Positions 25,205 to 35,829 of a stretch of 64,000 bases of DNA are shown here, one piece after another (within the stretch, counting starts at the first letter, position 1; the number at the start of each line of letters is the position of its first letter). The translations under genes were made by a program, and so were the position numbers. Source of the DNA: Pontibacter sp. SGAir0037 (GTDB lineage: Bacteria; Bacteroidota; Bacteroidia; Cytophagales; Hymenobacteraceae); the NCBI RefSeq assembly GCF_005491705.1, contig NZ_CP028092.1, positions 3,782,001 to 3,846,000 on the forward strand. Reading direction: 5' to 3'. The notes beneath the pieces were generated by a model. That model was not told the DNA's origin and made no database searches. It saw nothing but the letters and a program-made list of their open reading frames with translations.

Positions 25205-26566
25205 TTAGTAAGCTGTATTTTGTGGGTCGAAGTTAGCCCAGCCAGAAGTCCAGTTGGTGGCACCGAAAGCACCAACAAAGTCAACTTGGTCAAAGAAGCT
25301 GTCTAAGCCTGTGAAGCTTGGCTGCACAGTTGTAACTGCTTTTGTGAATGTTGGGGTAGCCGTATAAGCACCAGCAATGTTCAGGGTTGTTGCATCTGCC
25401 ACAACAGCATTTCCTCTACTGGTAGCAGTAAACCATCCTGCTACATCAAAAGAGCTACCGTCTACTACTGTAAGCGCTTTACCAGTTGGGCTACCAGCTA
25501 TAACAGTATTCTGAATCTTGAATTCGCCATTTGTTGCGTTTGTTTCAGTAGCAGTACCATCTAATAATAAACCTACAGGCCAGCCCATCACAATAGAGTT
25601 GTGCAGCTTAGTACGGTTGTTACGACGAAGGTGCAGACCACGCTTGAAGTTGGAATTCACTTGAGCGGCTGGATTAGTTTGTAGCGGCCCGAATAAAGTT
25701 ACGTTAGAGTATGTCGGTGCCGTAATTGGAGTAGCAGTAGTGCCTTGTGAGTTGTTGTCAGACTCAAAACCATTTGATCCTGACACATCAGAAGCAGAGC
25801 CTGAAATACCTAATAAGTACTGCAGCTTACCGCTATAACCATTATCAGTATCAAACATGTCGTCTACATTTCTGAAAGCAATAAGATGTTTTGCGTTTAC
25901 AGTACCTCCAAACCACTCAAAAGAGTCGTCACCACAATAAGATACCTGTACGTAATCTATTGTTGTACCAGAACCTACACCACCCATTGTAAGGCCATTT
26001 ATTTCATTATCAGGCTGAAAAGCAATACCAGGGAATTCTATACGTACATATTTAAGTACACCGGAATTATCAGTAGCTTCAGATCCACCGTACTCTCTGT
26101 CTACACCACCTTCAATCATTGCACCAGATCCAAGGTTAACAGGAGCTTTACCTAGTATAATCAAGCCTCCCCAGTCACCGGCAGCACGAGAGCCAGCTGG
26201 TTTAGCTGACGTGAAGACAATAGGCTTAGAAGCCGTACCTTCTGCCATAATTTTCGCTCCACGTTCAATAACTAGCGTACCTTTTGAGTTTACTCCATTA
26301 GCATCGATATAACCCATGATAACAGTTCCTGGCTCAATAGTTAAAGTTGCCCCCTCTTTTACATATACAAATCCTTTTAACAGATATTTTGTATTCGCTC
26401 TTAATGTAAAGTTCTCTTCTGTAGAACCAGAGATAACAGTCATACCGTTTGATTGCTCTACAGTAAACTGCTCACCTGTTGTCACCCCAGGAGAATCATC
26501 GTCATCACAGGCAACAAATGAGACTGCAAGAAAAGCCACCAACAATAGGTTAAATAACTTTTTCAT
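25205..26566 (-). CDS. Putative surface-exposed lipoprotein, partner of the TonB receptor
   Basis: A 453-residue lipoprotein. The signal peptide ends at Cys20 (VSFVACDDDD); four Asp right after the lipidated Cys resemble the acidic lipoprotein export signal of Bacteroidota, so surface display is likely. The mature part looks like a right-handed beta-helix: repeating short strands such as GATLTIEPGTVIMGY, GTLVIERGAKIMAEGTASKP, WGGLIILGKAPVN and HNSIVMGWPVGLLLDGT. It contains many Asp/Asn/Gly turns (DDMFDTDNGYSG) that could bind cations or phosphate compounds. It is encoded 33 bp after the TonB receptor and is its probable outer-membrane partner. The substrate is unknown, but the phosphate locus next door is suggestive. 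Confidence 0.82.
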   Translation of the reverse strand: MKKLFNLLLVAFLAVSFVACDDDDSPGVTTGEQFTVEQSNGMTVISGSTEENFTLRANTKYLLKGFVYVKEGATLTIEPGTVIMGYIDANGVNSKGTLVIERGAKIMAEGTASKPIVFTSAKPAGSRAAGDWGGLIILGKAPVNLGSGAMIEGGVDREYGGSEATDNSGVLKYVRIEFPGIAFQPDNEINGLTMGGVGSGTTIDYVQVSYCGDDSFEWFGGTVNAKHLIAFRNVDDMFDTDNGYSGKLQYLLGISGSASDVSGSNGFESDNNSQGTTATPITAPTYSNVTLFGPLQTNPAAQVNSNFKRGLHLRRNNRTKLHNSIVMGWPVGLLLDGTATETNATNGEFKIQNTVIAGSPTGKALTVVDGSSFDVAGWFTATSRGNAVVADATTLNIAGAYTATPTFTKAVTTVQPSFTGLDSFFDQVDFVGAFGATNWTSGWANFDPQNTAY

Positions 26567-26599: not shown

Positions 26600-29404
26600 T
26601 TAGAATTTGTATGTGATACCCAAAGTAGAATATTGTCCTTTGCGGAAAACCCTGAAAGGTTCATCTACTGATGTTATTTTTTGATCGTCGTCAGAATCCT
26701 GGATCAAGCGTGTTTTCTGATTTAACAGATCTTGAATGCCTGCTTTAATTTCAATATGTTCTCCTATACCTTTTGTTAGCGAAATATCTATTAGATTTCG
26801 AGGCATTTCATACACAGCCTGTCGCAGGTTACTTCCTGCAGCAAAAATGCGTCGCCCAATAACATTGTATAGTACATTAAACTGCAACTGGCGCTCATTA
26901 TCTTGGTAATATAATCCTGTGTTCAGGGCATAAGGAGATTGCCCTACCATGGCACGTTTCCCTGGCTGATAACCTGAGGACTTTTGAGACAGCTCAACTT
27001 CGCTTTTGATTAAGGCTGCATTTAGAACTACAGTTAAGTTCTGTATAAACCTACTTTCAGAAACATCAAGCAAAGATTTTCTAATTTCAGCCTCTAAGCC
27101 ATAATTGAAGGCACTTTTAGCATTTTCAAATGATATCGTATTTGCACCACTAGTATTTCTGAAAACTGCTTCAATTGGTTTCTCAAAGTGCTTGTAAAAC
27201 ACCCCAGCAGATATTAATTCGGTAGGATTAGGATAAAATTCGTAGCGAACATCTCCATTATAAATTGTAGCATTTTCTAAAGTAGGGTTACCTATCACTT
27301 CGAGCAGGTTAACAAAATCGAAGTATGGGGCAGGCGCAATTTCTCTGAATTCAGGTCTGTTAACACTTATACTACCTCCTGCACGCAACATTGCTCTTGA
27401 GGCAAGGTTGTAAGTAAAGTTGGCAGATGGTAACACGCTCACTACTGGATTCTTACGATTGATTGGAGAATTATCAAAATTTGAGGAACGCAACTCTTGG
27501 TTATTATACTCCACACGCACACCACCTGATACAGAAAGCTTTGTTGTAATTGGTGTAGAACCACTTATATATCCAGCAATATTAGTGTTAGCAGCTTCAT
27601 AGCTGTTCTGTGGATTATAGTTTTCAACTAAAATCAAGCCGTTGGTACTATTGATATTTTCTGGTGCAAAAACTTCGTTCAGCGGCTTATAAGCTATTGA
27701 TTCCTCGAAATTATTGCCATAGGCAAAAGACAGAAAACGTGAGAAATAGTCTCTATCTTTTCTTTCAGCATAAAAACCAAGTCGAATTTTAGGAGCATTT
27801 TCCGCCGTAGAGTCAGCTGTACTAAATCGATGCTCATACTGGCTGCTTGCCATAATCACATGTTCGTTAAGATCAGAGTAAAAACGCCCAGCATCCTGAA
27901 GGCTAGGATTAGAACTCGGCTGTAGCAGCACTTTATAAGTTCCGTTGCCTTCATCATCCACAGTTCTTACTCTTCTGTAATCTGGCTCATTACGATTAGT
28001 ATAGTTGTAGCCTCCAGTCCAGGTTAAGGATGATTTATTATCATTAAAATCATGAGTGCCTTGTAGCTGCCCAGAATATATTGTTCTGCTTTCGTAACGC
28101 AGTGCATAATTACGCTGCAATTGGTTACTATTTGTAAAATCAACACCTTCACGAGCCAATACTTCGCTGCTACCTAACTGATTAAATAAATTTCTAAATT
28201 CAATCTTATTATTATTGTTTAAACGAGCAGACCAGTTACTGATAACTCCAAGACGGACATTATTGGTAAAAACTTCATCTCTATAACTCTGCTGCCTCAT
28301 ACTACTGCCCAGCGAGGGATCATATGCGCCGTAAGTATCTCTTGTACCCTCAGTTATTGTTTTGGTATTACTATAAGAAACGGCATTCATACCACTCATT
28401 TGCAAAGGACCCAGATCGAAAATACGATTTAAGCCCAAGGACAAACGCAGGTCAGGAGCAGCTGTAGTAGACTGAGGAGCCCAGTTATTAGGGAATAAGC
28501 GCCCAACTTGTTGCAGTTGATCCTGTCTGCCTGATAAAGTATTAACATTTGCAGGCACACCTTCTGGAATAGCGCGTTTCCCATTATCGAACCCTAAAAA
28601 ATCGGTAGTACTCTTACTATCGTTTAGAAATGTGTTAAAGGTAGTGCCTACCCTGTAAGCACCTGAAATTCCAATGTTGGTTGAATTATCAGCAACTACA
28701 TTTTTTGTATATATTTTTATAACACCTCCGCCAAACTCACCAGGTAGTTCAGGGGATCCATTCTTGTAGATCATGATGCGATCTATCACACTTGTTGGAA
28801 GAATATCGAACGAAAAAGCTTTTTGATCTGGTTCTGTACTTGGTGTTAAGGCATCGTTCAGCATAACTGTATTATAACGCTGATTCATACCTCTGATAAC
28901 TATATAACGGTCATTCAGAATCGTAACTCCCGGAATACGCTTAACGGTTTCTGCTGCATCACGGTCCATAGACTTAGCTATCTGCTCGCCACCAACGCCG
29001 CTTACAACCACTTCGCTTTGCCGCATTGTTTGCAATACAGCCATTTCCGTATTTGTTTGGCGGGCTCCAACTATTTCTACCCCTTGAATTTCGGTAGCCA
29101 TTGATTCAAGCTGCACGTTTAACACAGCTGCTTGGCCTGCACTAACTTTTACTGCAGCACTTTCAAAAGACTTATAAGAAAGAAATGTAACTGACACAGT
29201 ATATGTACCTGGGTCTAACGGCAATGTAAAATTTCCTTCGTAGTTAGTAGTAGTTCCCTTGGAAGTACCCTTTACAAACACCACTGCTCCGATAATTTCC
29301 TCCCCGGAATTCTTATCAGTAACTTTGCCTTTAAGTGTAGCCTGTTGGGCAAAGCCATAAAATGTAGTGGAAAGAATGGTGAGAAATGTAAATAAAAATT
29401 TCAT
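26600..29404 (-). CDS. TonB-dependent outer membrane receptor
   Basis: A 934-residue receptor. A signal peptide (FLFTFLTILSTTFYGFAQQ) is followed by a CarboxypepD_reg-like domain (about 20-110, ATLKGKVTDKNSGEEIIGAV, GNFTLPLDPGTYTVSVTFLS), a plug domain (about 125-235, including AAETVKRIPGVTILNDRYIV and IRGMNQRYNTVMLNDA) and a 22-strand-type beta-barrel ending in a C-terminal Phe (TLGITYKF). It takes up a ligand with energy from TonB-ExbBD. It is co-transcribed with the lipoprotein gene and diverges from the phosphate porin/Pst genes; upstream are 11-bp-spaced TTAACA-like repeats and a -7 element. An organic or bound phosphate ligand is therefore the leading guess. SusC-like signature residues are not evident. 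Confidence 0.92.
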   Translation of the reverse strand: MKFLFTFLTILSTTFYGFAQQATLKGKVTDKNSGEEIIGAVVFVKGTSKGTTTNYEGNFTLPLDPGTYTVSVTFLSYKSFESAAVKVSAGQAAVLNVQLESMATEIQGVEIVGARQTNTEMAVLQTMRQSEVVVSGVGGEQIAKSMDRDAAETVKRIPGVTILNDRYIVIRGMNQRYNTVMLNDALTPSTEPDQKAFSFDILPTSVIDRIMIYKNGSPELPGEFGGGVIKIYTKNVVADNSTNIGISGAYRVGTTFNTFLNDSKSTTDFLGFDNGKRAIPEGVPANVNTLSGRQDQLQQVGRLFPNNWAPQSTTAAPDLRLSLGLNRIFDLGPLQMSGMNAVSYSNTKTITEGTRDTYGAYDPSLGSSMRQQSYRDEVFTNNVRLGVISNWSARLNNNNKIEFRNLFNQLGSSEVLAREGVDFTNSNQLQRNYALRYESRTIYSGQLQGTHDFNDNKSSLTWTGGYNYTNRNEPDYRRVRTVDDEGNGTYKVLLQPSSNPSLQDAGRFYSDLNEHVIMASSQYEHRFSTADSTAENAPKIRLGFYAERKDRDYFSRFLSFAYGNNFEESIAYKPLNEVFAPENINSTNGLILVENYNPQNSYEAANTNIAGYISGSTPITTKLSVSGGVRVEYNNQELRSSNFDNSPINRKNPVVSVLPSANFTYNLASRAMLRAGGSISVNRPEFREIAPAPYFDFVNLLEVIGNPTLENATIYNGDVRYEFYPNPTELISAGVFYKHFEKPIEAVFRNTSGANTISFENAKSAFNYGLEAEIRKSLLDVSESRFIQNLTVVLNAALIKSEVELSQKSSGYQPGKRAMVGQSPYALNTGLYYQDNERQLQFNVLYNVIGRRIFAAGSNLRQAVYEMPRNLIDISLTKGIGEHIEIKAGIQDLLNQKTRLIQDSDDDQKITSVDEPFRVFRKGQYSTLGITYKF

Positions 29405-29431: not shown

Positions 29432-29487
29432 CAAAAGTAGATCAGTCATTTTAAGCTAATATTAACCACTAATTATGTTAATGTTAA
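29432..29487 (-). promoter_or_regulatory. TonB receptor promoter with weak PHO-box-like repeats
   Basis: On the minus strand TACTTTTG (29432-29439) matches TAnnTTTG. Upstream of it, hexamers TTAACA, ATAATT, TTAATA and TTAAAA start at an exact 11-bp period (29487, 29476, 29465, 29454). The distance from the last repeat to the -7 box equals that in the porin promoter. Only one of the four is a perfect repeat, so in such AT-rich DNA chance is possible. Confidence 0.4.
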
Positions 29488-29777
29488 TCATTGCTCTTCC
29501 GTGTTAAGAGAAATTTATCTTAATGTTACCTGTAATTAAACTATTTGTTAACCACATGTAAAGTACTGTTAATATCTCCATCTTACCCTAGTTTAACCCA
29601 CCACAATGAACTATACAAAATCCAAAACATGCCCTGTTTTATAAAGGACTCCATCAGTTAAAAACAACATATACTGTTTATTTTAACTTAAACCTAGGCA
29701 GACACAGAACGCGCAGCTACTATATTAATGCAATTTCCCATTCCTAAGTTATCAATAAGGGAAACCCATAAAATCTC

Positions 29778-29816
29778 ATAACAATAACTTAACATTACCA
29801 TAACACACAACTAACA
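29778..29816 (+). promoter_or_regulatory. PHO-box-like array: four (A/T/C)TAACA repeats, 11-bp period
   Basis: ATAACA, TTAACA, ATAACA and CTAACA begin at 29778, 29789, 29800 and 29811, an exact 11-bp spacing, with TAACA identical in all four. PhoB/PhoP-type response regulators bind head-to-tail repeats with this period. The array ends 9 bp before a -7-like GAACTTTG (29826-29833), placing it where an activator would replace the -33 element. Assignment to PhoB-type control is inferred from the downstream phosphate genes. Confidence 0.72.
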
Positions 29817-29951
29817 TCCAAGTAAGAACTTTGTGGTGCAAAAGCAAGTACAGCCTGACTAACTGGTACGAGCTGAGCAGTTGCCTTTCTGGAACGGCTG
29901 GACCCCGCCCCAGAGAGAAATAAAGCAACATGCATTAAATTCTCACCCACA

Positions 29952-31262
29952 ATGACAAAAACAACAGTAAAAGCTGTTCTGGCAACAGGACTGTCTTTAT
30001 GGTTTAGCTTTGCCCATCAAGTAAAAGCACAGGAACAAACGGATAGCACCAGCATAACCGTTGCAGCACCATCCGCGACACAGCAAGTTCCCCCTGTCGC
30101 ATCTCCTACAAAAAAGTGGTATGAGAGAATCTCGCTAAGAAGCTATACCCAAATACGCTACAACCGCCTGCTCGAGACAAACCCACTGCTTAAGTGCGAC
30201 CAGTGCGACAGGTCTTTAGGAGAAAACGGAGGCTTTTTTATACGCCGGGCCCGACTAATCTTCAGCGGCAATGTGCATGAAAGGGTGTTTGTGTATATCC
30301 AGCCCGATCTTGCCTCTTCTCCGGGCGGAGGTTCTCTTAATTTCCTGCAGTTACGAGATGCTTATTTCGATCTGGCCCTGGACAAAGACAAGGAATTCAG
30401 ACTGCGTTTCGGGCAAAGCAAGGTGCCCTATGGGTTTGAAAACATGCAGTCGAGCAGCAACCGTATCGTGCTGGACCGTAACGATGCCCTGAACAGTGCA
30501 GTGGCTAACGAACGAGACATAGGTATTTTCTTTTACTGGGCACCTACGGTAGTGCGCGAGCGCTTCGAAGAATTGACCAACTCAGTTCTGAAAGGCTCCG
30601 GAGACTATGGCATGTTCGGCTTAGGCATCTACAACGGCCAAACGGCCAACAGACCTGAAGCCAACAATACACAACATATTGTAGCTCGTTTCACATATCC
30701 TATAAAGCTTCCTAACGGTCAGTTTATAGAACCAGGCATTCAGGCTTATACAGGCATCTATACCTTAACTGCCGATCAGCTGACTACTGGCGTTACTATT
30801 AACCCGAACAACGAAGCTACTGCCCCAACCTCTGAACCCTTGGCCCCGAATTTTAAAGATCAGCGTATAGCTGCCACCGTTGTTGTTTACCCGCAACCGC
30901 TGGGTTTTCAAGCCGAATACAACGTAGGAAGAGGCCCTGAATATGACATCGCTACAAACTCTATTCAGACAAAATCTCTGAAAGGAGGCTATGCTCAAGC
31001 CATTTATCAATTAAAAATAGGAGAACAGTTCCTGCTTCCCTTCCTGAAAATGCAATATTATGAAGGCGGCAAAAAGCACGAGTTGGATGCTACCAGCCAT
31101 CGGGTTTATGAAACAGAGATAGGTGCAGAATGGCAGCCTTTTAAAAATTTTGAACTGGTAGCCGACTATAGCATCGGCGACAGAACTACAAGCAATGCAA
31201 GAGTACAGAACAACAGGCAGTCTGGCAACAGGCTCAGGCTACAGGCACAGTTTAGCTTCTAA
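29952..31262 (+). CDS. OprO/OprP-like (Porin_O_P family) outer membrane porin
   Basis: A 436-residue outer-membrane barrel. The signal peptide (VLATGLSLWFSFAHQVKAQ) is followed by a Pro/Ser/Thr-rich linker and then porin strands with family features: RSYTQIRYNRLL, FFIRRARLIFSGNVHERVFV, LRDAYFDLALDKDKEFRLRF, GQSKVPYGFENMQSSSNRI and NERDIGIFFY. The Pseudomonas homologues OprP and OprO pass phosphate and polyphosphate. A C-terminal Phe (LRLQAQFSF) suits BAM insertion. An exact 11-bp repeat array precedes it and the Pst operon follows, so a phosphate-inducible phosphate channel is the likely role. CDQC near residue 80 is an unusual cysteine pair for a porin. Confidence 0.9.
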   Translation: MTKTTVKAVLATGLSLWFSFAHQVKAQEQTDSTSITVAAPSATQQVPPVASPTKKWYERISLRSYTQIRYNRLLETNPLLKCDQCDRSLGENGGFFIRRARLIFSGNVHERVFVYIQPDLASSPGGGSLNFLQLRDAYFDLALDKDKEFRLRFGQSKVPYGFENMQSSSNRIVLDRNDALNSAVANERDIGIFFYWAPTVVRERFEELTNSVLKGSGDYGMFGLGIYNGQTANRPEANNTQHIVARFTYPIKLPNGQFIEPGIQAYTGIYTLTADQLTTGVTINPNNEATAPTSEPLAPNFKDQRIAATVVVYPQPLGFQAEYNVGRGPEYDIATNSIQTKSLKGGYAQAIYQLKIGEQFLLPFLKMQYYEGGKKHELDATSHRVYETEIGAEWQPFKNFELVADYSIGDRTTSNARVQNNRQSGNRLRLQAQFSF

Positions 31263-31316: not shown

Positions 31317-31333
31317 TTAACAATAACATAACA
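31317..31333 (+). promoter_or_regulatory. PHO-box-like repeats upstream of pstS
   Basis: TTAACA (31317) and ATAACA (31328) are spaced exactly 11 bp, with a further overlapping TAACA at 31324 and a degenerate TTAAGA at 31338. They lie about 195 bp before pstS. A -7-like CAAATTTG is found at 31366-31373. The same words as in the porin array suggest common control, but the geometry is less regular. Confidence 0.45.
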
Positions 31334-31526
31334 TTACTTAAGAAAGGGATTGCTTGGTAATATACCAAATTTGCAGTCGATTACATAAACTTAAAGGGAC
31401 TAAACGGCATACAGCGCAAACCAACCAACTGACTGATCTACAGCTTGTAGCTCAACAGTAACCTCCAACCTTCAATTACAGTTTAATCTCACAAAATCAA
31501 ACAACAACACAAAACCAATCTGGCTT

Positions 31527-32507
31527 ATGTTAAAATTTAAGCTATATGCTGCACTTGTTTTAGGCGGCACTCTTTTGCTAAGCGCTTGCGGTGGCAATCA
31601 AAATGAAGGTTCAACTACTGCCTCTAATTTAGAAGGCAGTATTCAGATCGACGGTTCATCTACCGTTTACCCTATTACCGAGGCAGTTGCAGAAGATTTT
31701 AGAGCCGAGGCATCCGGTGTAAAAGTAACTGTCGGTATTTCGGGTACAGGCGGCGGCATGAAAAAGTTTACGCGCGGCGAAATAGATATCGTAGATGCTT
31801 CCCGCACCATGAACGCCGAAGAAGCCGCAACAGCCAACTCCAACAACATTTCATATTTAGAACTCCCTGTTGCATACGACGGCCTTACAATTGTTGTGAA
31901 CCCTGAAAACGACTGGGTGAAAGATATTACAGTAGCAGAACTTAAAAAAATCTGGGAGCCAGCTGCACAAGGAACAATCACCCGCTGGAATCAGATCAGG
32001 CCGGAATGGCCTAACCAGGAGATCCATTTATATGGGGCCGGAGTAGAATCGGGAACTTACGATTACTTTACAGAAGCTATTGTAGGAAAAAGCCACTCCA
32101 GCCGTGGCGACTATACAGCCAGCGAAGACGACAATGTGTTGGTACAAGGCGTTTCAACAGATAAATATGCACTGGGCTTCTTCGGCTATGCATACTACGA
32201 AGAAAACCAAAATAAGCTGAAAGCAGTGCCTGTAAACGATGGCAACGACAGCAACGGTGCAGGCGCTATTATGCCTTCTCTGGAAACTGTAAAAGATGGC
32301 ACCTATGCTCCGCTTTCGCGCCCGCTGTTCATTTATGTGAACTCGAAGGCAGCTGCAAGACCGGAAGTAGTAGAGTTTGTGAACTTTTACCTGGATAATG
32401 CCGCTACTCTTAGCGAAGAAGTAGGGTATATTCCAATGCCTGCCGAAAACTACAAAGAGCAGAAGCAGAAGTTCCAGCAGTTCACATCTGGCGTAGCAAA
32501 GCAATAA
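31527..32507 (+). CDS. pstS: Phosphate ABC transporter substrate-binding lipoprotein PstS
   Basis: A 326-residue periplasmic phosphate-binding lipoprotein with lipobox LLLSACGG (Cys21). The phosphate-binding segments of the family are present: IDGSSTVYPITEAVAEDF, SGTGGGMKKFTRGEIDIVDA, SR after it, and the GAGVESGTYDYF loop. It captures phosphate for PstCAB. It is first in the pst operon; a stem-loop before pstC could leave PstS in excess over the membrane subunits. PHO-box-like repeats lie upstream. Confidence 0.95.
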   Translation: MLKFKLYAALVLGGTLLLSACGGNQNEGSTTASNLEGSIQIDGSSTVYPITEAVAEDFRAEASGVKVTVGISGTGGGMKKFTRGEIDIVDASRTMNAEEAATANSNNISYLELPVAYDGLTIVVNPENDWVKDITVAELKKIWEPAAQGTITRWNQIRPEWPNQEIHLYGAGVESGTYDYFTEAIVGKSHSSRGDYTASEDDNVLVQGVSTDKYALGFFGYAYYEENQNKLKAVPVNDGNDSNGAGAIMPSLETVKDGTYAPLSRPLFIYVNSKAAARPEVVEFVNFYLDNAATLSEEVGYIPMPAENYKEQKQKFQQFTSGVAKQ

Positions 32508-32525
32508 TTTAATTATCTTATATAT

Positions 32526-32568
32526 AGTGCGGTTAAAGACATAGTAATTTACATGCCTTAACCGCACT
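32526..32568 (+). terminator. Intercistronic hairpin between pstS and pstC
   Basis: AGTGCGGTTAA (32526-32536) pairs exactly with TTAACCGCACT (32558-32568). There is no T-run after it, so it is more likely a partial attenuator or mRNA 3'-end stabiliser than a full terminator. Confidence 0.6.
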
Positions 32569-32583
32569 TAATTCTTAAGCACC

Positions 32584-33459
32584 TTGAGAGTACAAGAGAA
32601 AATTATTGAAGGTTTGCTGCGTATGTCCGCAGTTATCACCGTACTCATCACCATTGGTATTATCTGGGTACTGCTGTCGGAATCGGTTGCTTTCTTCAGA
32701 GAGGTTTCTATAGTGGAATTCCTGACGGAGAAAGAATGGACACCGCTGTTTGCCGACAAGAGATTTGGCATATTGCCCCTGGTGGCAGGCACCTTTCTGA
32801 CTACCGCTATTGCTATTGCAGTAGCGCTCCCGTTAGGGCTAACCATTGCTGTGTACCTGAACGAATACGCCCACGCCCGCTTAAAACAGGTTGTAAAGCC
32901 TATGCTGGAGGTGCTGGCAACAATTCCAACAGTGGTCTATGGCTTCTTTGCCTTAACGGTAGTTACTCCTTTCCTGCAAAAAATTATTCCAGGCTTAGCT
33001 GGTTTCAATGCTTTATCTGCTGGTATTGTAATGGGCATCATGATTATCCCGATGATATCTTCCTTAAGCGAAGATGCCATTAGTGCTGTACCCCGCTCCT
33101 TACGGGAAGCAGCTTACGGCATGGGTTCTACCCGGTTACAAACCGCATTTGGCGTGATGGTTCCTGCCGCTTCGTCAGGCATAGTGGTATCGGTTATACT
33201 GGCTATTTCGCGGGCTGTAGGCGAAACTATGATTGTGGCTATCGCAGCCGGACAGCAACCAAGGCTAACCTTAAACCCACTGGTTCCTATCGAAACAATT
33301 ACGACTTATATTGTGCAGGTAAGCTTAGGCGATGTGCCGCACGGCTCGCTGGAATACAGAACCATATTTGCAGCTGGTATTACGCTGTTTGTGTTCACGT
33401 TTGCACTAAACAATATCAGTTTCTGGATTAAAAAGAAATATCAGGAGAAGTATGACTAA
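32584..33459 (+). CDS. pstC: Phosphate ABC transporter permease PstC
   Basis: A 291-residue inner-membrane permease with six predicted helices. The BPD_transp motif is [20 protein letters not shown] (EAA loop), and the conserved [13 protein letters not shown] and [15 protein letters not shown] segments are typical of PstC. The start appears to be TTG at 32584: an in-frame stop lies 13 bp upstream, the first ATG is 13 codons later, and the residues [11 protein letters not shown] fit the family N-terminus. It overlaps pstA by 8 bp. Confidence 0.93.
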
Positions 33460-34309
33460 TTCAGATAAAAACAGGCTGAAAGACAAGGCTTTTCAAGTCT
33501 TTGGCATTTTTTGCACCTTTATAGGCATTGTTGTATTAGGTGTTTTCCTGGTTGATATTATTATAGAAGGTGCCAAAAGAATTGACTGGGACTTCTTAAC
33601 CAGCCTACCCTCCAGAAGGGCCAGCAGGGCAGGTATACTTACCGCCTGGGCAGGCACACTCTGGATACTGGTATTAACAGCTGTTATTGCCTTTCCGATA
33701 GGTATAGCTACAGGCGTTTACCTGGAAGAATACAGTAAAAAAGGGCGACTGGCTAATATTCTGGAAATTAACATAGCAAACCTGGCAGGTGTACCTTCCA
33801 TTATTTATGGTTTGCTTGGCCTGGAGCTGTTTGTAAGGCAAATGCGCCTGGGTGGCAGCCTACTGGCAGGTGCACTTACCTTATCGCTGCTGATACTGCC
33901 TATTATTATAGTAACTACCCGCGAAGCGATAAAAGCAGTACCCAGAAGCATCCGCGATGGTTCTTTTGCCCTGGGAGCTTCTAAATGGCAAACCACGTGG
34001 CACCAGGTACTGCCTGCCTCCTTTGGCGGTATACTTACAGGCATCATTCTGGCACTTTCCAGGGCTGTGGGAGAAGCTGCTCCGCTTATTGTGATAGGTG
34101 CACTGGCCTATGTGCCATTTGTTCCGGGCACACCTATGGATGAGTTTACAGTATTGCCTATCCAGATCTTTAACTGGACGTCTCGCCCACAGGCTGATTT
34201 CCTGGTAAATGCAGCGGCAGCCATTATTATATTATTAGCCATCACATTTGTGCTAAACGGCATTGCCGTATACCTTCGCAACAGGCAGCAGAAAAAAGTA
34301 AAGTGGTAA
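33452..34309 (+). CDS. pstA: Phosphate ABC transporter permease PstA
   Basis: A 285-residue permease, partner of PstC. Helix one is followed by the long periplasmic segment [20 protein letters not shown] that is characteristic of PstA. The EAA loop is [20 protein letters not shown] and the motif [17 protein letters not shown] follows. Its start lies inside the pstC end (8-bp overlap), and pstB follows after 7 bp, so translation is coupled across the operon. Confidence 0.95.
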
Positions 34310-34316
34310 AGAATTC

Positions 34317-35081
34317 ATGAAAGAGAAAACATATAAGCTGGAAGCAAAAGATTTAAATGCCTACTATGGCAACTTCCATGCACTTAAAAATATAAACCTG
34401 GCAATGGAAGAAAAGGCTGTTACAGCCTTTATTGGTCCCTCAGGCTGTGGTAAATCTACTTTCCTGCGCACGCTCAACCGTATGAACGACTACGTGGACG
34501 GCTTTAGAGTAGAAGGCGACATTCTGCTCGATGGACGGGACATCTACGATAAGAAAGTACGGGTAGATGAACTTCGCAAAGAGGTAGGGATGGTTTTTCA
34601 GAAGCCGAACCCTTTCCCGAAAAGCATTTTTGAGAATGTGATATATGGCCTTAAAATACAAGGCATTAAAAACAAAGCCGTTCTGAACGACGTTTGTGAA
34701 AAGTCGCTGCGGCAGGCGGCTCTCTGGGATGAGGTAAAGGACAAGCTGGATAAATCTGCCCTGGCTCTTTCAGGGGGGCAGCAACAGCGGCTTTGCATTG
34801 CACGTGCCCTGGCCATTCAGCCAACAGTGCTATTGATGGACGAACCAGCTTCTGCCCTCGACCCGATCTCTACTTCTAAAATTGAGGAGCTTATCTACGA
34901 TCTCAAAAAGGACTACACTATTGTTATTGTTACTCACAACATGCAGCAGGCGGGTCGTGTTAGCGATCATACGGCTTTTTTCTACATGGGCGAGTTAGTG
35001 GAATATGCTAAAACCAAAACGCTGTTTACAAGCCCGAAAAACGAGCGGACTCAGAACTACATTACAGGCCGTTTCGGGTAA
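34317..35081 (+). CDS. pstB: Phosphate ABC transporter ATP-binding protein PstB
   Basis: A 254-residue ABC ATPase with a full set of motifs: Walker [10 protein letters not shown] (40-48), Q-loop Q95 ([10 protein letters not shown]), signature LSGGQQQR (151-158), Walker B LLMDEP (Asp175, Glu176) and H-loop VTHNMQQA. The PstB-typical stretch [10 protein letters not shown] and FEGDI-like [13 protein letters not shown] are present. It energises phosphate import through PstCA and, with PhoU, relays phosphate status to the Pho sensor kinase. Confidence 0.97.
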
Positions 35082-35145
35082 TAGCTACAACCCTGTTCTT
35101 TTTCGTAAATACTAGGTACACTCACCCATAACACTAACAACAAGC

Positions 35146-35829
35146 ATGTCTCATATAGATATAGAATTAGAGAAAATAAAATCGAAGCTGATGGAGATGT
35201 GGGACCTGGTTGACTACCAGGTACAGAGCAGCCAGGAAGCACTGGCCACCATTAATCATGAACTGGCCGAGAAGATCATAAACCTGGGCAAAAAGGTAAA
35301 TAAATACGATATAAAAGTAGACCGCCTTTGCGAAAACGTATTTGCCCTGTTTACACCCGTAGCAGTTGATCTGCGTACACTGCTGGCTACTCTCAAGATA
35401 AATGCTAATCTGGAGCGCATTGGCGATTCTTCGGAAGGCATCGGGTATTACGTTAAAAAGTTATCAGCGCCCATTAACCAGCATTTGCTAACTGCTACCA
35501 AAACAGGAGAAATGTTTCAGGCAGCCGTCGCCATGCTGGCAGAATGCCGCACTGCTTATTTAAATGGAGATACAGAACTGGCAAAGCAGGTCATCAAACG
35601 AGATAAAGCCCTCAACAAAATTTATCACAAATCGGATAGCCTGATTGCAAAGTATATAAAAGACAATCCTGATAAAATACAGGAGGGCCTGGTTCTGCTT
35701 TCCATCATCAAAAAGATTGAGCGCATCGGCGACCAAGCCACCAATATCGCTGAAGAAATTATTTTTTACCGCGATGCCAAAGTGGTGAAGCACAAAAAGA
35801 AGAAAAAGAAGAAAGATAAAGACGAGTAG
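35146..35829 (+). CDS. phoU: Phosphate signalling complex protein PhoU
   Basis: A 227-residue PhoU built of two three-helix bundles. The family metal-cluster motif E/DxxxD is seen as KYDIKVDRLCENVF and KALNKIYHKSDSL, with the paired LERIGDSSEGIGYY and IERIGDQATNIAEE. PhoU represses the Pho response when phosphate is ample by bridging PstB and the sensor kinase. The last ~13 residues are almost all charged (HKKKKKKKDKDE), an unusual Lys-rich tail. A terminator follows within 4 bp, ending the pst-phoU operon. No phoR/phoB genes lie in the window. Confidence 0.93.
   Translation: MSHIDIELEKIKSKLMEMWDLVDYQVQSSQEALATINHELAEKIINLGKKVNKYDIKVDRLCENVFALFTPVAVDLRTLLATLKINANLERIGDSSEGIGYYVKKLSAPINQHLLTATKTGEMFQAAVAMLAECRTAYLNGDTELAKQVIKRDKALNKIYHKSDSLIAKYIKDNPDKIQEGLVLLSIIKKIERIGDQATNIAEEIIFYRDAKVVKHKKKKKKKDKDE

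Follow-up and report, generated by a model that had tools for sequence, protein, structure and literature searches.

The window, that is the whole 64,000-nucleotide stretch of Pontibacter sp. SGAir0037 DNA that was analysed, contains a porin gene with pst genes on one side and genes for a TonB-dependent receptor and a putative lipoprotein on the other (Table 1). Four exact TAACA direct repeats stand in the porin promoter and begin at positions 29779, 29790, 29801 and 29812, i.e. in exact 11-bp steps. Nine bases (29817–29825) separate the last copy from the −7-like element GAACTTTG, and TTTG is absent from the 30 bases preceding this element. The initial annotation had described the spacing of the four copies, the 9-bp gap and an array in the place of the −33 box, and all three are confirmed here. 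The bases between the TAACA cores vary from unit to unit. Two properties of a PHO box are present in this promoter: two or more direct repeats with an 11-bp period, and a fixed short distance (here 9 bp) to a core promoter element, with the repeats replacing the upstream element. The E. coli-type unit CTGTCAT is not found in the array; units of the present kind, those of relatives included, are TAACA/TAATA. A three-copy pattern with at most 2 mismatches matches the window 4 times (3 times within the porin array) against a shuffle mean of 0.25, and 0 of 100 shuffles reached 4 matches.

The start of the TonB receptor gene lies about 28 bp downstream of a second candidate box on the minus strand (29432–29486). 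The further minus-strand TAACA copies at 29502–29571 are in a register different from that of this box and represent a possible second binding site. The TAACA pair of pstS is weak and its −7-like element is one base off register.

Table 1. Features of the porin–pst region; positions are those of the window
Feature	Position	Strand	Remarks
Putative lipoprotein, relative of the Flavobacterium phoBR-adjacent lipoprotein (FII type)	25205..26566	−	No Pfam match
TonB-dependent receptor (CarboxypepD_reg + Plug), divergent to the porin	26600..29404	−	Pfam
Second candidate box: TAACA, TAATT, TAATA, TAAAA in 11-bp steps, 9 bp, TACTTTTG (−7)	29432..29486	−	
Further TAACA copies at 29502, 29524, 29546, 29567 (steps 22, 22, 21)	29502..29571	−	
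TAACA direct repeats, four exact, period 11 bp (proposed PHO box, porin promoter)	29779..29816	+	Conserved in relatives
−7-like element GAACTTTG, one mismatch to TANNTTTG	29826..29833	+	9-bp gap also in other promoters
Porin, Porin_O_P family (phosphate-selective porin O and P)	29952..31262	+	Pfam PF07396, E 5.9e-45
TAACA pair 11 bp apart, 5' of pstS (weaker, possible secondary box)	31318..31333	+	
−7-like element CAAATTTG of pstS	31366..31373	+	32 bp (not 31) past the last TAACA of the pair
pstS, pstC, pstA, pstB, phoU	31527..35829	+	Pfam supports a PstS-type binding protein, one permease (32593–33456) and PhoU; pstA and pstB named from order and translation

The repeats in related genomes and elsewhere in the Pontibacter genome

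A search for PstS covered 80 family genomes, our own included, and gave a match in 79. Of the others, 45 have PstS matches below 1e-25, and regions were fetched from 40 of these. Many of them have the order TonB receptor/lipoprotein, porin, often a gene of about 396 codons, and pstSCAB-phoU, and the order porin-pstSCAB-phoU is kept in most of the more distant regions. TAACA pairs were counted on the coding strand upstream of pst-cluster genes (99 regions): 58 are spaced by 11 bp and 26 by 22 bp, with a mean of 0.5 for other spacings; the 11-bp ratio of TAACA is the highest among the pentamers tested. No pair at 11 bp was found in 235 control upstreams of other genes from the same loci. The upstreams of pstS, the window included, contribute 8 pairs at 11 bp. 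The expectation that the repeats would be conserved in relatives was borne out by comparison of the porin, TonB-receptor and pst-cluster promoters.

In 50 chains, TANNTTTG (at most 1 mismatch) follows the last TAACA at 9 bp (10 times), 20 bp (6) or 31 bp (25), which makes 41 of the 53 occurrences within 0–44 bp; all other distances together account for 12. Since the −7 element stands at 9, 20 or 31 bp past the last TAACA, the steps left between the exact copies and the promoter are taken up by degenerate units. What stays fixed is the phase of the units, at 9+11k bp from the −7 element. An anchored profile was made from 33 promoters and is partly built in, because a −7 element 9, 20 or 31 bp away was the condition for including them. 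Its units begin 47, 36, 25 and 14 bases upstream of that element and read, in order, TAACA, TAACA, TAA(C/T)A and (T/C)AA(T/C)A. The consensus (A/T)TAACA-N5 of the initial annotation needs a refinement: promoter-proximal units are often TAATA or CAATA, so that the exact word under-detects.

Three exact copies give 23 matches in 18 of the 80 family genomes, with 0 for the reversed control. By genome, these lie in the pst cluster (12), before a porin (2), before a nuclease (1), beside an integrase-like gene (2) and at one remaining place, where no recognisable phosphate gene follows. One of the porins is a Porin_O_P protein with an E value of 0.0003, just under the cut-off, and the other was named by reading; the nuclease is a DNA/RNA non-specific endonuclease (E 2e-51). 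The arrays next to integrase-like genes come from two genomes (L114, L115) and are perhaps attachment-site repeats.

In the Pontibacter genome, a scan for three exact TAACA copies returned the window site and no second one, so a degenerate form is needed for finding a regulon. Two looser forms were tried and rejected: the three-copy pattern with at most 2 mismatches (29 matches versus 11 for the reversed control), with few matches at phosphate-type genes, and the two-unit pattern with at most 3 mismatches (107 versus 79), which is too loose. With at most 2 mismatches, 5 of the best 16 two-unit matches precede phosphate-type genes. Among the patterns tried in this genome only the four-unit one, TAAYA-N6 three times, NAAYA, N9 and TNNNTTTG, was separated from its reversed control: with at most 3 mismatches it gives 7 matches, 5 of them outside the window, and the control gives 0. 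By our own grouping all 7 lie at phosphate-type genes, i.e. the pattern stands upstream of several phosphate-acquisition operons in one genome. The proposal that TAACA at 11-bp steps would lead to pho genes across the genome is thus supported for the degenerate four-unit form, whereas three or more exact copies find this site only.

Two of the seven sites are the promoters of the window porin and the window TonB receptor. The third precedes a gene for an OlsF-like ornithine-lipid synthase (NF052615, E 2.8e-115, 386 of 620 cut-off bits, a partial piece), and the fourth a metallophosphoesterase gene followed by a glycosyltransferase gene. At the fifth, a lipoprotein gene (L147) is followed by one for a CCP_MauG protein. 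L147 is 40–46% identical to three boxed lipoproteins elsewhere. Its identification as PhoX was dropped: Pfam and NCBIfam gave no match and PDB none of use, and it is therefore named lipoprotein only. Its neighbour is MauG-like. The sixth site precedes genes for an ECF sigma factor, FecR, SusC, SusD and a type I phosphodiesterase. The seventh is followed by SusC, SusD, PI-PLC, a weak PHP match and a metallophosphoesterase, with an alkaline phosphatase gene lying before it; the SusC reading frame begins 340 bp past the site. The two SusCD-type loci (C1:1874648-1882498 and 4847543-4857712), with their phosphodiesterase, PI-PLC and phosphatase genes, resemble phosphate utilisation systems described in F. 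johnsoniae.

With 2 mismatches allowed, the four-unit pattern has 107 sites in 62 of the 80 family genomes against 3 for the reversed control, and no match in the other 18. A period-12 version has 1 site and its reversed form 4. Of these sites, 54 lie in pst clusters, which partly repeat their source because the pattern was written from family promoters, and 53 lie elsewhere. Downstream genes were examined for 17 loci in other genera, for the sites of the Pontibacter genome and for promoters already in hand. Among the 17, TonB receptors 42–58% identical to that of the window follow 6 times and weaker relatives 4 times; the remainder are 2 MauG-like proteins, 1 OlsF-like protein and, at 4 loci, a protein (about 304 residues) that matches nothing in our phosphate set. 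This last protein (L336, L341, L343, L345) comes from four genomes of one genus and is bestrophin-like by eye.

Distribution of the pattern in the phylum

Across 392 genomes of the phylum, the exact two-unit pattern TAACA-N6-TAACA-N9-TANNTTTG has 54 sites in 38 genomes, while its reversed control has 0; the pattern was written after the window and the earlier four-unit loci had been seen, and three of the latter are among the 54. A period-10 control gives 3 sites and its reversed form 2. The sites are not independent, as one genus gives 8 of the 54 and one family 18. The distant and heavily sampled family f18 has no site of the exact two-unit pattern, so the box may differ there.

A downstream reading frame is missing at 3 of the 54 sites, which leaves 51 proteins. 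Phosphate-type proteins make up 38 of the 51 by our own grouping: 18 TonB receptors with a Plug domain, 6 DUF47/PhoU_div proteins, 3 Porin_O_P porins, 1 PstS-type protein, 5 calcineurin-like phosphoesterases (one a 5'-nucleotidase), 1 protein with a phosphoesterase match, 1 FII-type lipoprotein and 3 relatives of the boxed Pontibacter lipoprotein. Eight are ambiguous (3 arsenate-reductase-like, 2 DUF2490, 2 weakly glycosyltransferase-like, 1 TonB_C protein). The remaining five have no phosphate-like character and comprise one ABC-F protein, one PLP enzyme, one TetR regulator, one kinase and another outer-membrane protein. The arsenate-reductase-like genes with a box come from three genomes of one genus (L216, L218, L221) and suggest that arsenate handling is under phosphate control there.

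An FII-type lipoprotein gene follows all 17 box-bearing TonB receptor genes (of 18) for which downstream DNA was fetched, and it is absent behind the other boxed outer-membrane protein (one region). The pair of TonB receptor and FII-type lipoprotein is the most frequent target of the box in the phylum search. By reading, three of the DUF47 loci have a PhoR-like kinase gene before and a PitA-like gene after.

Four exact units occur in 10 of the 392 genomes (reversed control 1). These ten loci are the window, one minisatellite and eight others, which, mostly by reading, precede a porin and then pstS (3), a porin (1), TonB-receptor-like proteins (3) and a PstS-like protein (1). The minisatellite (L132) has an 11-bp period, consists of TAACAACCCAA-like units and matches the pattern without a link to phosphate.

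Further units are also seen upstream of those searched for. In 48 phylum promoters, unselected for upstream units (56 rows minus L173, L175, L177, L178, L206, L226 and two duplicate L211), TAA stands 11 bp (26 promoters), 22 bp (24) and 33 bp (8) upstream, and other phases have 0–5.

The proposed regulator and alternative explanations

The best PhoB candidate of the Pontibacter genome is L030 (C1:3463973), a Response_reg + Trans_reg_C protein whose gene is followed by that of a HisKA histidine kinase, i.e. a PhoB/PhoR pair is encoded. It is 55% identical to a Flavobacterium PhoB, and six other OmpR-type regulators are 28–35% identical. TIGR02154 was of no use as a test for PhoB, having 72 matches in this genome and none over the cut-off (L030 reaches 226 of 296 bits); L030 was selected on account of the kinase gene behind it, and later also for its similarity to a Flavobacterium PhoB. 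No TAACA array was found upstream of phoB in this genome.

In Flavobacterium the proposed regulator and its presumed target often lie side by side. Twelve regions were fetched from the genus of G104, a genome that matches Flavobacterium sp. HBTb2-11-1 at 100%. In 6 of the 12 the genes for TonB receptor and lipoprotein adjoin phoB-phoR, 3 times together with a porin gene, and the remaining 6 have the lipoprotein without phoB. In 40 of 48 named loci, mostly Flavobacterium and with F. johnsoniae itself outside the set, phoB is divergent to the adjoining TonB receptor gene. Of the receptor promoters (42 of the 48 viewed), those of Flavobacterium have as many as six 11-mers that keep the register, the last of which stops 9 bp short of TTTCTTTG. 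A three-unit form with at most 3 mismatches, composed after those sequences had been read, is found upstream of the receptor in 42 of 48 loci, and its reversed and period-10 forms in 0 of 48.

Expression data are available for F. johnsoniae, its genes being paired here with those of the window by family and order, not by sequence. As given in the accessible part of PMC8115612, phosphate depletion raises the TonB receptor (log2 8.02) and the FII lipoprotein (9.91) of the phoBR locus. PhoX_like (12.5), MauG (9.58) and PlcP (8.59) respond likewise and SusCD loci are up, and the porin of the phoBR locus, Fjoh_0542, is not induced (−1.3; PMC8115612, same part).

Repeats that keep their phase and are conserved, genes linked to them and a phoB-phoR pair can all be read directly from the DNA. 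They make it highly probable that the array is a PHO box, i.e. a tandem site for a PhoB-type response regulator that activates phosphate-scavenging genes when phosphate is scarce. The initial annotation had given this reading, and it gains support from the degenerate matches at phosphate-type genes and from repeats kept in relatives. Two to four 11-bp units (up to six in Flavobacterium) with a TAAYA core would stand head to tail over the place of the −33 element, their register ending exactly 9 bp before a Bacteroidota-type −7 element (TAnnTTTG). The units would be occupied by head-to-tail dimers of phosphorylated PhoB, which would bring RNA polymerase to a promoter without a −33 element. In this organism PhoB would be the binding protein, four units would hold two dimers and phosphate starvation would be the signal.

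OmpR/PhoB-type regulators could also read direct repeats of about 10–11 bp, and the array may bind a member of this family other than PhoB that controls genes of outer-membrane transport. The Pontibacter genome has at least 7 OmpR/PhoB-type regulators that match the PhoB model nearly end to end, and TonB receptors, a class with many functions, make up 18 of the 51 downstream proteins in the phylum. Against such a regulator, all 7 matches of the Pontibacter genome lie at phosphate-type genes, the TonB receptor gene of Flavobacterium has phoB as a neighbour, the boxed DUF47 and PitA-like genes at the three loci identified by reading come after a PhoR-like kinase gene, and the lipoprotein behind the 17 receptors with fetched downstream DNA is of FII type throughout. 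We consider this explanation unlikely.

Short tandem repeats near the helical pitch can bend DNA, and L132 is a true 11-bp minisatellite. It is still very improbable that the repeats are a product of slippage or a curved-DNA element that works without a regulator: the inter-core bases differ between units, the pattern has a strand direction, the distance of 9+11k bp to the −7 element is kept, and the reversed and period-shifted controls are near zero. The intergenic region that holds the porin array is AT-rich and in particular rich in TTAA, but four exact copies arising there by chance can practically be dismissed, as their first-order Markov expectation is 4.8e-7 in the window (4.1e-5 in the 5.38 Mb genome) and the array is conserved at the same place in relatives.

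Comparison with known PHO boxes

Few binding sites of Bacteroidota regulators have been defined to our knowledge, and Bacteroidota promoters are unusual. A PHO box of fixed geometry would make the Pho regulon predictable from sequence alone in genomes from soil, plants, the sea and the gut. It would point to candidates for phosphate uptake, namely the pair of TonB receptor and FII lipoprotein, and it makes testable how an activator of the OmpR/PhoB family cooperates with RNA polymerase of the Bacteroidota type where the −7 element has no −33 partner. We lean towards a general Bacteroidota PHO box, made of TAAYA arrays at 9 bp to the −7 element, with a cyanobacteria-like word and with the TonB receptor and FII pair as its top target. 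The parts of this joint reading are that the arrays typically have four units, hence two PhoB dimers, and are phase-locked to the −7 element; the core word is presumably also common to Firmicutes, rather than E. coli. If the box is general, the TonB receptor and the FII-type lipoprotein would form a phylum-wide uptake system for phosphate or organophosphate.

Our set of boxed genes overlaps with the PHO regulon of F. johnsoniae in Table 1 of PMC8115612, where the TonB receptor and FII lipoprotein, PhoX_like and MauG, PlcP and a glycosyltransferase are found. The same table also has SusCD loci with ECF sigma, FecR and phosphodiesterases (PMC8115612). The words 'Pho box', 'promoter' and 'motif' have 0 occurrences in the main text of this paper. 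PhoB of Bacteroides fragilis binds a 512-bp fragment of the pstC promoter in a gel-shift assay, and the accessible part of that paper (PMC3547664) gives no box sequence. Putative Pho boxes are reported in plcP gene clusters of marine bacteria (PMC4796936), the accessible part of which holds neither a box sequence nor a statement whether Bacteroidota are included; that of PMC6232261 has nothing on a box sequence. Among the papers listed foremost in searches of the open-access literature, with subscription papers and preprints outside this scope, we recognised none that defines a PHO box for Bacteroidota.

According to the initial annotation, PHO boxes of Proteobacteria and Firmicutes have the same period and different sequences. 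CTGTCAT of E. coli does differ, but the word found here is not far from the boxes of other lineages, the cyanobacterial one among them. The PhoP box of Bacillus subtilis consists of TT(A/C/T)ACA repeats, several per promoter, and we take its word and period to be nearly those of our array; the Bacillus box differs in belonging to a Firmicute promoter and sigma factor and in having PhoP as regulator. The PhoB PHO box of E. coli is likewise head to tail with an 11-bp period and lies at a fixed short distance, 10 bp, upstream of the −10 element (accessible parts of PMC1906773 and PMC4415409). Its unit is CTGTCAT. Here the unit is TAACA, and a gap of 9 bp leads to a core promoter element of the Bacteroidota −7 type (TAnnTTTG). 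The cyanobacterial SphR box has at least 3 tandem 8-bp repeats CTTAACCT, and SphR two-repeat motifs have 3-bp linkers, i.e. an 11-bp period, and a TTAAC core in common with our array (PMC1906773, accessible part). SphR has TTAACCT where TTAACA is found here, and the promoter type and the gene set differ. PHO boxes of an 11-bp period have long been known (PMC4415409 and PMC1906773, as far as accessible).
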